A stretch of DNA of 64,000 nucleotides from Neoscytalidium dimidiatum (lineage: Eukaryota > Ascomycota > Dothideomycetes > Botryosphaeriales > Botryosphaeriaceae), in the NCBI GenBank assembly GCA_037367355.1, contig CM074704.1, positions 1,736,001 to 1,800,000 of the forward strand, in the 5' to 3' direction. The first letter of the stretch is position 1. The number at the start of each line of letters is the position of its first letter. Below the pieces are notes generated by a model. That model saw nothing but the letters and a program-made list of their open reading frames with translations. It made no database searches and was not told the DNA's origin. Below, in pieces: positions 46,556-62,813 of the stretch. The position numbers and the translations under genes were made by a program.

Positions 46556-46897
46556 GATCGCGGGCGGCGTGAGAAAGCGGTCAAGTGATTATTTCGGGAA
46601 GCAGTTGGCGAAGGTCGGTGCGGGCGGTCGTCGGCGGGTAGATGGTGTTGGAAATGCGACAGCAACTGAGCTCAACTTCGCGCGCCGACGCGCGCCAAGA
46701 CGGCTTTCTGCCACATGTTACCGCCTAAGAGCGCCGCTGCATTTCTGGAGCTGTAGGCCGAAGCACTTTAACACCAAGACATCATTGTCGCAGAAACTAC
46801 GCGCCCGCCCAAAACAAGCGCAGACCAGAATTCTTAACCATCCTGCCCTTGTACTTTGGCACTCCATATCACATCTCGACTTGTATCAAGAGCAAAA
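46556..46897. promoter_or_regulatory. Shared divergent promoter of SmG and Ntr2 genes
   Basis: Only 342 bp separate the start codons of two splicing-factor genes read in opposite directions. Shared regulation is plausible but inferred from the spacing only. Confidence 0.6.
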
Positions 46898-48310
46898 ATG
46901 AGAAAATCCTTCGGCGCGCGGCGCGTCCCTCGGAAGATCGGCCAGGACGACGATGAAGACGCAGGCGCCACCAGCTCCGGCACTGAGGGAGGCGCCAAAA
47001 CACCAGGTCAGTATTCCTACATCGCACCCGAATCACGCAAGAGAGTTTCCTATTCTGACGCGCTTGCCCTGGACAGATCGCTGATCAAAAATCTAACAGA
47101 ACCCGTCGTAAAACGCCCGGCCGTTGCGAAAGCAAAGAAAAGCTCGTCCCTCCGACTCTCCTTTGGCCCTGGTGAAAGTGGCGCCGAGGGCGATGGGGAA
47201 GGTGGTGCCGTCTTCACACCCAAAAAGTCGAATCTAAGCAGGATAGCGGCCGAGAAGAATGCGGAACGCAAAGGCCTTCGCGTCTCGTTGACGTCAGACC
47301 AATTACCCTCACGGAGAGAAGTTACGGAGGACCGTCCGAGTTACAGTAAGGAAGCGCTGGCCGAGTTACGCGATTCGCAACCCTCTACACCCAAGGACAT
47401 GGGCCCCAGCGCGGGCGAGGAGGATGAGGCTACGGCAAAAGAACTAGACATTGCCGCAAAATTCGGGCCGCTCGCAAGCTTGAAAACTTCCTCAGCTATT
47501 CCCACGGAGGCGGAGATTCGAGAGAAGAAGGAGCGCAGGCGACGGCTGGCGAGGGAGTCAGGCTACATGTCCCTGGATGCAGACGAGGATAGAGAGAGAA
47601 CTGTGTACGATGAGGAAAATGCGTATGACAGTGATGATCTGGACCGCCCGCGTGATGTTACCATCCGAACATCTTTTAAGGAGAAGTATCCCGAGGGCCG
47701 TTTGGTACATGAGGACGAGGATATTGCTGAGGGTTTCGACGACTTCGTGGAGGATGGACGCATATCGCTTGGCCGCAAAGCAGAACGTGAAGCTAAACTC
47801 AAGCGCCGTGAGGAAATGGCAAGCATGATCGCAGACGCTGAGGGTGTTGGTTCAGGGGATGATGAATCAGATGATTCCGATGCGGAGCGCAACGCTGCAT
47901 ACGAAGCTGCTCAGACCAAGGCTGGTACTTACGGCTCGAGAGAGAAGATTCTGGATGATCCTCAAAGGCCTCGAACGCCACCGAAAATCACTCCTCTGCC
48001 AGAACTTGGAGGTGTCTTGGCGCGTTTGCGCGCTTCACTGAAGGAGCAGGAGGAGGTAAAGGCCGCGAAGGTTAGAAGAATGGAGCAACTGGCAAGAGAG
48101 AAGGCGGATATTGCGTCACAGGAGACATGGATACAGAGTCAACTAAAAGAAGCGGGAGAAAAGTACGAGAGACTGAGAATCGAGGCTGGAGGTGCGGGCG
48201 GTGCTGCAACGCCAGTCAACGGGGTAGATAGCACGGCTGCAAGTGAGAGAGGCCTGGACAGCTTGGGTGGGACGCCGGCAGCAGTAACCAGTGATATAGA
48301 TGATGCATGA
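46898..48310 (+). CDS. NTR2: Nineteen complex-related protein 2 (Ntr2)-like splicing factor
   Basis: A single exon of 470 residues from the first ATG at 46898; the frame is open upstream but has no ATG there. The N-terminus MRKSFGARRVPRKIGQDDD is basic then acidic. The segment RPSYSKEALAELRDSQPSTP (about residues 145-165) is the hallmark of the Ntr2 domain. It is followed by FGPLASLKTSSAIPTEAEIREKKERRR, GYMSLD, and a C-terminal coiled-coil region (LARLRASLKEQEEVKAAKVRRMEQLAREK). In yeast Ntr2 joins Ntr1 and the helicase Prp43 to dismantle the post-splicing complex. The acidic middle (EDEDIAEGFDDFVEDGRISLG) is also typical. The assignment rests on these motifs and not on a computed alignment. 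Confidence 0.82.
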   Translation: MRKSFGARRVPRKIGQDDDEDAGATSSGTEGGAKTPGQYSYIAPESRKRVSYSDALALDRSLIKNLTEPVVKRPAVAKAKKSSSLRLSFGPGESGAEGDGEGGAVFTPKKSNLSRIAAEKNAERKGLRVSLTSDQLPSRREVTEDRPSYSKEALAELRDSQPSTPKDMGPSAGEEDEATAKELDIAAKFGPLASLKTSSAIPTEAEIREKKERRRRLARESGYMSLDADEDRERTVYDEENAYDSDDLDRPRDVTIRTSFKEKYPEGRLVHEDEDIAEGFDDFVEDGRISLGRKAEREAKLKRREEMASMIADAEGVGSGDDESDDSDAERNAAYEAAQTKAGTYGSREKILDDPQRPRTPPKITPLPELGGVLARLRASLKEQEEVKAAKVRRMEQLAREKADIASQETWIQSQLKEAGEKYERLRIEAGGAGGAATPVNGVDSTAASERGLDSLGGTPAAVTSDIDDA

Positions 48311-57844: not shown

Positions 57845-58273
57845 AGATATCCGCCAATTTGAGCTGCGTGTTCGACAACTTGAGCACGGCCGGGAATCTG
57901 CTTCAGCCAGCTCACGTGCGAAAAGCTGATACCCCGTCCTGTATCTGGAACCATGGTCTTCGCTTGCTGGTTTCCACTTCCTTCATTGGTCGCCTATCCT
58001 TTTGCGTATGACAGAACTTCGATCTATCCATATGCGGTCACAGATCAGACTTCAGACGTTAACTTTCCCTCCTCATTCTCTAGTCCTTCATCATACGACG
58101 ACGTCGAAAATTGAAACATGAAGCCACCGAGCTCCCAAAGAGGTAAACTCATCATGCAATGGCAACGGCACTTCCTCGGAGCTCACACACATGCTAGATT
58201 ATCGGGCGGACTCTCTCCAGCGCACAGATGCTGCACAAAAAAAATTTCTGATCCAACCGACAAAAATTACAAA
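57845..58273. other. Intergenic, nothing clear
   Basis: Region between the F-box-like frames and the first 5S rRNA gene. Short ORFs only. Confidence 0.45.
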
Positions 58274-58392
58274 ACGTACAACAGCCGGTATTCCCCAATG
58301 GTCACCCACTTGAGTACTAATCGACCGGTTCGCAGCTTAAATATCGGGGAGCGGACGGGACCCGTTGCTTTCTGCGGCCTATGGTCGTACGT
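58274..58392 (-). rRNA. 5S ribosomal RNA gene, copy A
   Basis: A 119-nt sequence on the minus strand with the fungal 5S layout: terminal helix ACGTAC/GTACGT, the central GGTCCCGTCCGCTC segment, the internal control region around GAACCGG...GATTAGTACTC, and GTGGGTGACCA...GGGGAATACC. Helix II (CGCAG/CTGCG) and helix V pairs are intact. A T-rich Pol III terminator follows directly (TTTT, then TTTTT). Dispersed single 5S genes are normal in Pezizomycotina. Confidence 0.93.
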
Positions 58393-60906: not shown

Positions 60907-61425
60907 ATTTGCATAGCGGTGCTGGCCTGCAAGAATTTGCTCACGTAGGTGGGTAATCATGTCAATTTGGAGCGCAGATAGCGAGCATTCTTGCTGTTAA
61001 ATTTCTATTCCGCGGTCGCCTGTCAATGCCAATTGTGAGAAACTAGGGTCACATTACGACATGAGCGTCGCTTATAGACCGTGAACATTTCTCCGGAGAC
61101 GAGGCTGGGGATAAAGGAGAGTGGACCGAGAACGATGTGGAACATGCATGTGATGGAGGAGGAACGCTTGCGGCTTTCGAATAAGGCTAATGGACCGGTC
61201 GGATTAACGTCCCCAAACGAATGAGCTACCCGAAGCGGAAGGGAAAAAGTTCTCGATTTAGCTTAAGTGTCGTTGTTGTTGCAGTTGTATACCTGATCTG
61301 GTGTTGATATGGTGTGGAATTCCGGGGAGCCTCGGCCGATTTTGCCCGTCCCGGACCGACGGTAGCCGATGCCGCCACAACACTACGGGGGTACAAAAAA
61401 AAAAGCACAAACAAACACAAAAAGA
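60907..61425. promoter_or_regulatory. Sulfatase upstream region
   Basis: A 519-bp region holding the probable promoter of the sulfatase and, near its right end, A-rich sequence that is the T-rich terminator of 5S copy B on the minus strand. No gene seen. Confidence 0.5.
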
Positions 61426-61544
61426 ACGTACAGTAGCTGGGATTCCCCAATGGTCACCCACTTGAGTACTAATCAGCCGGTTCACAGGTTAAGTACCGGG
61501 GAGCGGACGGGACCCGCTGCTTTCTGTGGCCTATGACCGTACGT
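61426..61544 (-). rRNA. 5S ribosomal RNA gene, copy B
   Basis: A 119-nt sequence on the minus strand, the same length as copy A, with 14 substitutions and no indel. At least four base pairs have changed on both sides, keeping pairing: 8-112 (A-U to G-C), 9-111 (C-G to U-A), 18-61 (G-C to A-U) and 70-107 (C-G to U-A), in RNA numbering. This argues that both copies make working RNA. A T5 terminator follows within 10 nt. Confidence 0.92.
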
Positions 61545-62667
61545 GGTATAGGAGGTTGCGTGCAATGTACATAACCATTCAAATTTTCTCTAATCGTCTG
61601 ATGCGGGCGTAAATTGGAGACTGTACAGGCGTAGTAGTAAAAAAATCTTGAACAAGTTGTATGTAAAAGTCTGGGAGCAACTAAGTATCCGAGCTCTTGA
61701 ACAAGCATCGCATACATATGCACCATTACGACTTTGTGATCGTCATACGAGGCCGACTTTCTTTTACTAGAGAGACAGCTGCTTCATGTGAGTGAGCCCA
61801 TGCAAAGTCACGTCGGAGGACACATTCTGCACACCCTATAGACGCTGATGCCCTGAATTCTGCACCGTCTAAACGTCTGGACAAGGCGTAATGGAGCAGA
61901 ATTCTCGCGTAGTTCGGAGGTGCGCTGTGAGATCGATCGGAGCGTAGGTGATGGATCGCGTGTTCGTAGCAACATTGAATTGCCGACCAATGCTGCGCCT
62001 ACCGAGAATACACGGTGAGCGGTGAGGAACATCTGGTAGGACGTATGTGTGCAGTTACAGTAAATTGTATTACCGAATGCACAAGAGCAACGAATTCTGG
62101 TGAAAGTTAAGTGAACTCATGCGGAGACACGCGGGGGGATGGTATGCATACAAGCACAATCTTCCGTCTCCTACTTCAGCCCAAATCCGCCTTATGATTC
62201 ATTCCTGGTGAGTAGATTCTTGGTAGGCATCCTCTATACCACCTTTCCCTTGGACAAGAAGACACCTTCACTTTGCTCTTCCCCCAATTCTTCAGCAAGA
62301 AGGTCTTTGAATCTGACGTAAGAGGGCTCAGACGACTGGGTGCCTACAGTTTCGTGGCACCTTCTGGGTAACTTAGTTAACGTCTGTCTTACCGCATCGA
62401 GTAGTTTGACGGGATGGTACGGCGGCGAATACAGTGTCAGGCTTCGTACTTTCGCTTGCCTGCTCCCGCATGTAGAGAATATTCATTGCGTACAATGTCA
62501 GCTCAAGGCATGTTTTCGTCGTCTAATGCAGGAGGTACGCGGGGAGTACGAACAAAAATGGTGGGGCTCCTCGGACAAGACAGGCAATTGCAACTGAAAC
62601 CAGTCATCATTAGACAAAGAGGGGCAGCAGCGACGAGGCAGCCACAAAAGCAAGAGACAAAAAACAG
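61545..62667. other. Intergenic, 1.1 kb without a gene
   Basis: Short ORFs without motifs. The minus-strand ORF at 61469..61726 partly runs through 5S copy B. Confidence 0.5.
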
Positions 62668-62813
62668 TGAGGACGGTGCGATTTGAACGCACAGCCTTCA
62701 GGAAATTCCAGTAGTATTCGCTGGAATCTGACGCTGTAATGAGAGTTAGTATGAGGTGCCTGAGCCTCTTGGTAAGTGGAGAGGACTTACCGCTACCATT
62801 GCGCCACGCCCCC
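62668..62813 (-). tRNA. tRNA-Trp (CCA) with a canonical intron plus a GT-AG insertion in the D-arm
   Basis: On the minus strand the acceptor GGGGGCG (62813..62807) pairs with CGTCCTC (62675..62669), and the discriminator A is at 62668. The D-arm GCGC-AATGGTA-GCG^C is split after position 24 by a 57-nt insertion, 62790..62734. The insertion begins GTAAGT, has TACTAAC at 62751..62745 and ends in CAG. The anticodon stem starts TCAGA and the anticodon CCA is at 62724..62722. A 17-nt canonical intron (62720..62704) follows G37 and contains CTGGAA, which can pair with the anticodon region TTCCAG as tRNA introns do. The T-arm GTGCG/CGCAC around TTCAAAT and a T6 terminator (62664..62659) follow. Box A lies wholly upstream of the insertion and box B is intact, so transcription should be possible. 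The exon text closely resembles known eukaryotic tRNA-Trp. One A-C mismatch closes the anticodon stem. Confidence 0.92.
62734..62790 (-). other. Spliceosomal-type intron inside the tRNA-Trp D-arm
   Basis: A 57-nt insertion with a GTAAGT 5' site, TACTAAC branch sequence (branch A about 12 nt from the 3' end) and a CAG 3' site, matching the protein-gene introns of this window in size and signals. A perfect 7-bp inverted repeat, GGTAAGT (62791..62785) and ACTTACC (62777..62771), covers the 5' splice site. Confidence 0.75.

Follow-up and report, generated by a model that had tools for sequence, protein, structure and literature searches.

Introns of nuclear tRNA genes are commonly assigned to the tRNA endonuclease, and spliceosomal introns are regarded as a feature of mRNAs and of a few snRNA and snoRNA genes. 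In the available part of one report, the U6 snRNA gene of fission yeast is described as a Pol III gene that carries an mRNA-type spliceosomal intron (PMC10484740), and U6 introns in other fungi are reported by the title of a cited reference. Fungal U3 snoRNA genes, Dothideomycetes included, likewise contain normal mRNA-type introns within a short structured RNA gene, according to the accessible text of PMC5832005. Ectopic tRNA introns, which lie outside position 37/38 and, in Archaea, can also occupy the D arm, are described for Archaea and Cyanidioschyzon merolae in the parts of PMC4090602 and PMC3978253 that were available. In this study, we analysed a stretch of 64,000 nucleotides of Neoscytalidium dimidiatum DNA (hereafter the window; contig C10, 1736001-1800000), in which a tRNA-Trp gene is interrupted in its D arm. 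Judged from its sequence, the insert is very probably a U2-type spliceosomal intron in an essential nuclear tRNA gene, and one of a set located at position 24/25 in all the tRNA-Trp genes (three) and initiator tRNA-Met genes (three good and one decayed) that were found.

The tRNA-Trp gene extends from 62813 to 62668 on the minus strand, to which all the following coordinates refer, and contains an ordinary intron of 17 nt at 37/38 in addition to the D-arm insert of 57 nt. Exon 1 (62791..62813, tRNA positions 1-24) supplies the 5' strand of the acceptor stem, the D arm, and the Pol III A box. It is followed, between positions 24 and 25, by the predicted D-arm intron (62734..62790, GTAAGT...ACAG), the sequence of which offers a 5' splice site GTAAGT (62785..62790), a branch site TACTAAC (62745..62751), and a 3' splice site CAG (62734..62736); the putative branch A (62746) precedes the end of the intron by 12 nt. 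Exon 2 (62721..62733, positions 25-37) contains the anticodon CCA, and the 17-nt intron (62704..62720), which can pair with the anticodon, separates it from exon 3 (62668..62703, positions 38-73), which contains the T arm and the Pol III B box (62688-62680). A T6 run directly 3' of the gene (62659..62664) is likely to be the Pol III terminator.

When both introns were removed, a tRNA of 72 nt with the anticodon CCA was obtained, in which pair counting gave 7/7 pairs in the acceptor stem, 4/4 in the D stem, 5/5 in the T stem, and 4/5 in the anticodon stem. The missing pair was an A31.C39 mismatch, which was observed in the spliced form of all three tRNA-Trp copies (in the window, within 62703-62733). 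The lowest-energy structure given by RNAfold for the unmodified spliced tRNA-Trp was not a cloverleaf in any of the three copies, and the cloverleaf assignment is accordingly based on the pair count and ARAGORN, not on the RNAfold structure. In the predicted fold of the window copy, GGTAAGT and ACTTACC (62771-62791) could form a 7-bp hairpin that would cover the 5' splice site; this hairpin was absent from the folds of the other two tRNA-Trp copies. The first-pass annotation of this DNA had described a 57-nt insert at 24/25 with GTAAGT, TACTAAC, and CAG, a perfect D stem after its removal, and an ordinary 17-nt intron after position 37 that pairs with the anticodon. All of these were reproduced: the minus-strand coordinates were exact, the four D-stem pairs were restored, and the anticodon pairing was possible in the predicted fold. 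An insert of the same kind was present at the same position in five further genes; the single interrupted gene noted there was real, and it is one of six genes in a set of two isotypes.

Subsequently described copies were obtained from a genome assembly of 43.76 Mb in 40 contigs. A DNA similarity search with the whole locus, insert included, found three tRNA-Trp genes, namely the window copy and two copies on contig C1 (C1a and C1b) at a distance of 0.7 kb from each other, the exons of which were nearly identical to those of the window copy. With the initiator anticodon arm as the query, four initiator-type tRNA-Met loci were obtained, three good (L054, L055, and L056) and one decayed (L057). 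The D-arm insert was present at 24/25 in 3/3 tRNA-Trp genes and in 4/4 initiator-type loci. These copies were not picked by their splice signals, since whole-locus similarity had been used for tRNA-Trp and exon sequence alone for the four initiator loci. No uninterrupted tRNA-Trp was found when the genome was scanned with a 32-nt pattern over the joined junction at up to three mismatches. Likewise, no uninterrupted initiator tRNA-Met was found in a DNA search of the genome with the joined initiator tRNA; of this query, the 3' piece (23-72) matched at each of the four loci, whereas the 5' piece (to 23) matched at three. Because the genome search scores the best candidates only, these negatives are strong but not absolute.

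All three tRNA-Trp genes showed what is expected of a nuclear tRNA-Trp, that is, cloverleaf pairs (apart from the one mismatch each), the anticodon CCA, A and B boxes, and a T-run. Their 37/38 introns were 17, 16, and 11 nt in length, and the initiator genes had no second intron. Eukaryotic initiator tRNA-Met is characterized by A1-U72, A54, three G-C pairs adjacent to the anticodon loop, and CAT, and the sequences of all three good copies had each of these hallmarks. In the available text of PMC3978253, A54U55C56 is given as a hallmark of initiator tRNA.

The inserts were compared with mRNA introns of the host. As the reference we used 23 predicted GT..AG introns of four tubulin loci, which were obtained by spliced alignment of beta- and alpha-tubulin proteins with only GT..AG permitted, and the splice matrices were trained on these introns. 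The six good inserts were 57, 58, 53, 54, 56, and 57 nt in length, and the host introns 48-129 nt with a median of 56 nt. The 5' ends of the inserts were GTAAGT, GTAAGT, GTAGGT (C1b), GTATGT, GTAAGC, and GTAAGT, all of which fit GTANGY, and the 3' ends were CAG or TAG. Each of them contained CTAAC or CTAAT, and the predicted branch A was at distances of 12, 12, 10, 12, 12, and 12 nt from the 3' end. In the tubulin introns, a CTRAY motif was present in 18 of 23 and absent from the other five, and its branch A was 10-12 nt before the end in 12 of the 18. An additional AG between the branch and the 3' end was observed in two of the six introns, at 7 nt in C1b and at 3 nt in L054.

The splice scores of the tRNA inserts were 12.5-21.8, compared with 10.7-23.6 for the training introns. 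Five of the six scored 17.2-21.8, within the main host range, and C1b, at 12.5, was at the low end. None of 20,000 plain shuffles of the window insert scored as high as the insert itself. When the shuffles kept GT..AG, the p values for the six good inserts were 0.00015 (window), 0.00035, 0.041 (C1b), 0.00035, 0.0025, and 0.00075. In six of the seven inserts, sequence features of a U2-type intron were found: GT..AG, a host-like 5' splice site, and a branch motif at the host distance; the length of 53-58 nt also agrees with that of the host mRNA introns.

The degree of conservation differed among the parts of these genes. At the 14 splice-signal positions, agreement was 70/84 within isotypes and 108/126 between isotypes. 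The insert cores among the good copies of one isotype were 27-47% identical, and five of the six core pairs were inside the range of ten shuffles each; the pair of the window copy and C1b (0.47) was above all ten. When L057 was included, the core pair L056/L057 (0.50) was also above its shuffles. The flanks of the good copies were 13-45% alike, and identity of the mature tRNAs was 99-100% for tRNA-Trp and 92-100% for the initiator. Between L054 and the other two good initiator copies (L055 and L056), six bases differed, and these make up three compensated pairs, two in the acceptor stem and one in the T stem. The tRNA bodies of the six good genes are under functional constraint. As the genes belong to two paralogous families, they do not represent six independent events, and the families perhaps go back to two origins or to one.

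The fourth initiator-like tRNA-Met copy (L057 1420-1545, corresponding to C12:1574833-1574958) carries an insert at the same place of the D arm. It had GCGAGA at the 5' splice site, no CTAAY, an acceptor mismatch, and its first T-run (T4) 30 nt away, and the GT..AG-keeping shuffle test of its score gave p = 0.083. One T-stem pair was nevertheless compensated. L057 is probably a decaying copy and would thus serve as a natural control.

Standard tRNA finders overlook genes with such D-arm introns. No tRNA was reported in the intact window locus by ARAGORN or by Rfam (to E = 1). When the D-arm insert was deleted from the window gene, ARAGORN reported tRNA-Trp if introns were allowed, and tRNA-Gly if they were not, until the 37/38 intron was also removed. 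ARAGORN also gave tRNA-Trp for shifted deletions, at 10 neighbouring starts of 73. Since it tolerates such shifts, we placed the exact junction by the D stem and by comparison with the other copies rather than by ARAGORN. None of the seven interrupted genes was reported by ARAGORN in the default mode or by Rfam at the gathering score, and weak sub-threshold Rfam matches were observed at three initiator loci. With introns allowed, ARAGORN gave tRNAs with a wrong anticodon in three of the seven intact precursors (C1b, L054, and L056), and we took these results as chance. A search for non-canonical introns is included in tRNAscan-SE 2.0 and, in the available text of PMC8450103, is described for archaeal tRNAs.

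The occurrence of such inserts elsewhere was also examined. A pattern of the D arm followed by GTRNG with 7-nt D-loops had 11 matches in the genome, which were the six genes and five sites without a tRNA, and the reversed control had three. Two forms with 8-nt D-loops gave one match, which was not a tRNA by model R1, and none, with eight and four in the controls. The Rfam tRNA search at E 0.001 gave 63 matches, 24 on contig C40 and 39 elsewhere. The 38 retrieved Rfam tRNAs and a tRNA-Val of the window were read as Thr, Val, Ser, Arg, Ala, Lys, Gln, Gly, and Leu, and no D-arm insert was present in any of them. One further Rfam tRNA match at E 10 was the initiator gene on contig C7. The Rfam search, in which the best candidates only were scored, yielded no genes for Asn, Asp, Cys, Glu, His, Ile, Phe, Pro, Tyr, or elongator Met, and a human elongator-Met query had no genome match in a search run without a positive control. 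Trp and initiator Met are therefore the known cases and not necessarily all, the forms covered being 7- and 8-nt D-loops with the insert at 24/25. Two tRNA-Arg genes, L047 (C5:3487287-3487367) and L035 (C3:1430919-1431016), have a D arm almost that of tRNA-Trp and no intron, which suggests that the D-arm sequence alone does not set the intron site. In other sequence sets, three scans gave no match in viral contigs, and no match was obtained in plasmids. Bacterial and archaeal contigs gave 35 pattern matches; model R1 matched at seven of these 35 loci, in no case on the same strand behind the pattern, and we therefore took all 35 as chance.

Two observations were made on individual contigs during these searches. 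The tRNA matches on contig C40 (308 kb) recur about 176.85 kb apart, so that a circular genome may be present in C40 in more than a single unit; our guess is that it is mitochondrial. On contig C7, two U2 snRNA matches (L064 1-189 and 2898-3002) are located within 3 kb on opposite strands, the second covering only about 105 bases.

The six precursors had an intact A box (TGGCGCA, starting at position 8) and an intact B box, 98-118 nt apart from start to start, and T-runs of 5-14 began 3-19 nt behind all six good genes. This layout of boxes and T-runs is consistent with Pol III transcription. Two dispersed 5S rRNA genes are located on the minus strand of the window (58273-58392 and 61425-61544), the nearer of which is 1.1 kb away from tRNA-Trp; each of them matches the whole Rfam model and has no introns. 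Another gene of the window (46856-48310, plus strand) encodes an NTR2-like protein (Nineteen complex-related protein 2), of a family linked to spliceosome disassembly. Among the best 120 of 1150 matches listed, it shared 84% identity with a Macrophomina phaseolina protein and 77-80% with full-length proteins of Neofusicoccum, Lasiodiplodia, and Diplodia, so that on this one protein the host most likely belongs to Botryosphaeriaceae (Ascomycota).

The first-pass annotation had left two possibilities for the removal of the insert, passage of the tRNA precursor through the spliceosome or the action of a different enzyme. The latter could be the tRNA splicing endonuclease, which would cut an ectopic intron, with rejoining by tRNA ligase, as in Cyanidioschyzon merolae and Archaea. 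Some eukaryotic endonucleases are able to act at non-canonical sites, according to the available parts of PMC4090602 and PMC3978253, and the Trp genes do bear a 37/38 intron for this enzyme. However, when the junctions were examined for a bulge-helix-bulge (two 3-nt bulges around a 4-bp helix), the best pairing in the seven genes was 5-7 of 10 pairs, against means of 5.8-6.5 for shuffled inserts, and 33-99.7% of the shuffles reached the level of the genes, while the synthetic positives, which were the only positive controls, scored 10. Cutting by the endonuclease would furthermore leave the GT, the branch motif, and the AG without a role, and we regard it as very unlikely. An intron of the Ire1/HAC1 type, which has the consensus CNG|CNGN at both sites, was rejected, as 0 of 12 sites in the six genes matched. 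Self-splicing was rejected as well: a group I or II ribozyme core takes some hundreds of nucleotides, the inserts of 53-58 nt are too short, and no group I or II Rfam match was obtained at these loci. The bulge-helix-bulge, Ire1-type, and self-splicing readings were thus all left without support, and the spliceosome gains from the presence of host mRNA-intron signals in six genes of two isotypes. Counting against it are the additional AG in two of the introns, the hairpin over the 5' splice site of the window copy, the weaker signals of C1b and its core similarity to the window copy, the A31.C39 mismatch and the non-cloverleaf fold of spliced tRNA-Trp, the grouping of the six genes into only two families, and the use of predicted introns to train the matrices.

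Two further explanations concern the genes rather than the enzyme. If the interrupted genes were dead, working tRNA-Trp and initiator genes would be located elsewhere, and intact tRNA-Trp copies, together with an absence of spliced reads, are what the first-pass annotation had named as a sign of a decayed gene. None was found within the limits of a search that scores the best candidates only, although the assembly may miss genes and L057 does look decayed. The six tRNA bodies are intact or altered only in compensated pairs, except for the A31.C39 mismatch common to all Trp copies; moreover, the splice signals were kept while the cores were scrambled. Both tRNA-Trp and initiator tRNA-Met are indispensable. 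Decay was accordingly rejected for the six genes, for which it is highly improbable, and considered likely for L057. Alternatively, the introns might be parts of longer Pol II transcripts extending across the tRNA genes, with the Pol III transcripts unspliced. About 220 nt upstream of the window tRNA-Trp, a Sec20-like frame does end on the same strand, and Pol II may read through into this copy. Nevertheless, the six loci have unrelated flanks and the intron is exactly at 24/25 in each of them, and the interrupted genes must still yield a functional tRNA; we consider this explanation extremely improbable.

If the D-arm inserts are spliceosomal introns, the following pathway may be proposed. 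Transcription by Pol III would be directed by the A and B boxes, which flank the D-arm intron. With the D stem split by the intron, the unspliced precursor would be unable to form the normal D arm and could not take the tRNA fold; removal by the spliceosome, presumably in the nucleus, would consequently precede folding. Folding, end trimming, and export would then take place, and the tRNA endonuclease would afterwards cut the 37/38 intron from tRNA-Trp. On the sequence evidence, it is likely that in this fungal lineage the spliceosome is an obligatory step for two indispensable nuclear tRNAs, such that every initiator tRNA-Met and tRNA-Trp passes through it as a Pol III precursor. If this is true, translation would depend directly on the spliceosome, with initiation and tryptophan decoding coupled to splicing capacity. 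It would also suggest that very short Pol III transcripts are good splicing substrates, and these genes would provide a natural system for the entry of introns into structured RNA genes.

The first-pass annotation knew of no described spliceosomal intron in a fungal nuclear tRNA, and no report of one in any tRNA gene was found among the literature matches listed, for which titles and the starts of abstracts were covered in a partial literature without preprints and most subscription journals. In the available text, the word start 'spliceosom' is absent from the review PMC4090602, and its single use in PMC3978253 concerns protein genes. As far as searched, the intron is thus of a known kind, and the tRNA is a gene class new to it.

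The D-arm introns resemble those of U6 in being mRNA-type introns of a Pol III gene. U6, however, is itself a spliceosomal component, and reverse splicing near the catalytic bases is regarded as the source of its intron, whereas a tRNA is not part of the spliceosome; U6 of the host genome matched the Rfam model as one continuous piece and has no intron. The U3 gene is comparable as a short structured RNA gene, but it is not a tRNA, and intronless U3 paralogues are reported for eight genomes in the available text of PMC5832005, in contrast to the present genes, of which no uninterrupted copy was found. The ectopic introns of Archaea and Cyanidioschyzon merolae share the location outside 37/38 and bear bulge-helix-bulge motifs for the tRNA endonuclease, whereas the D-arm inserts do not. 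Finally, the canonical fungal 37/38 intron is present as the second intron in 3/3 Trp copies, and the D-arm intron differs from it in position, in signals, and, presumably, in the enzyme that removes it.
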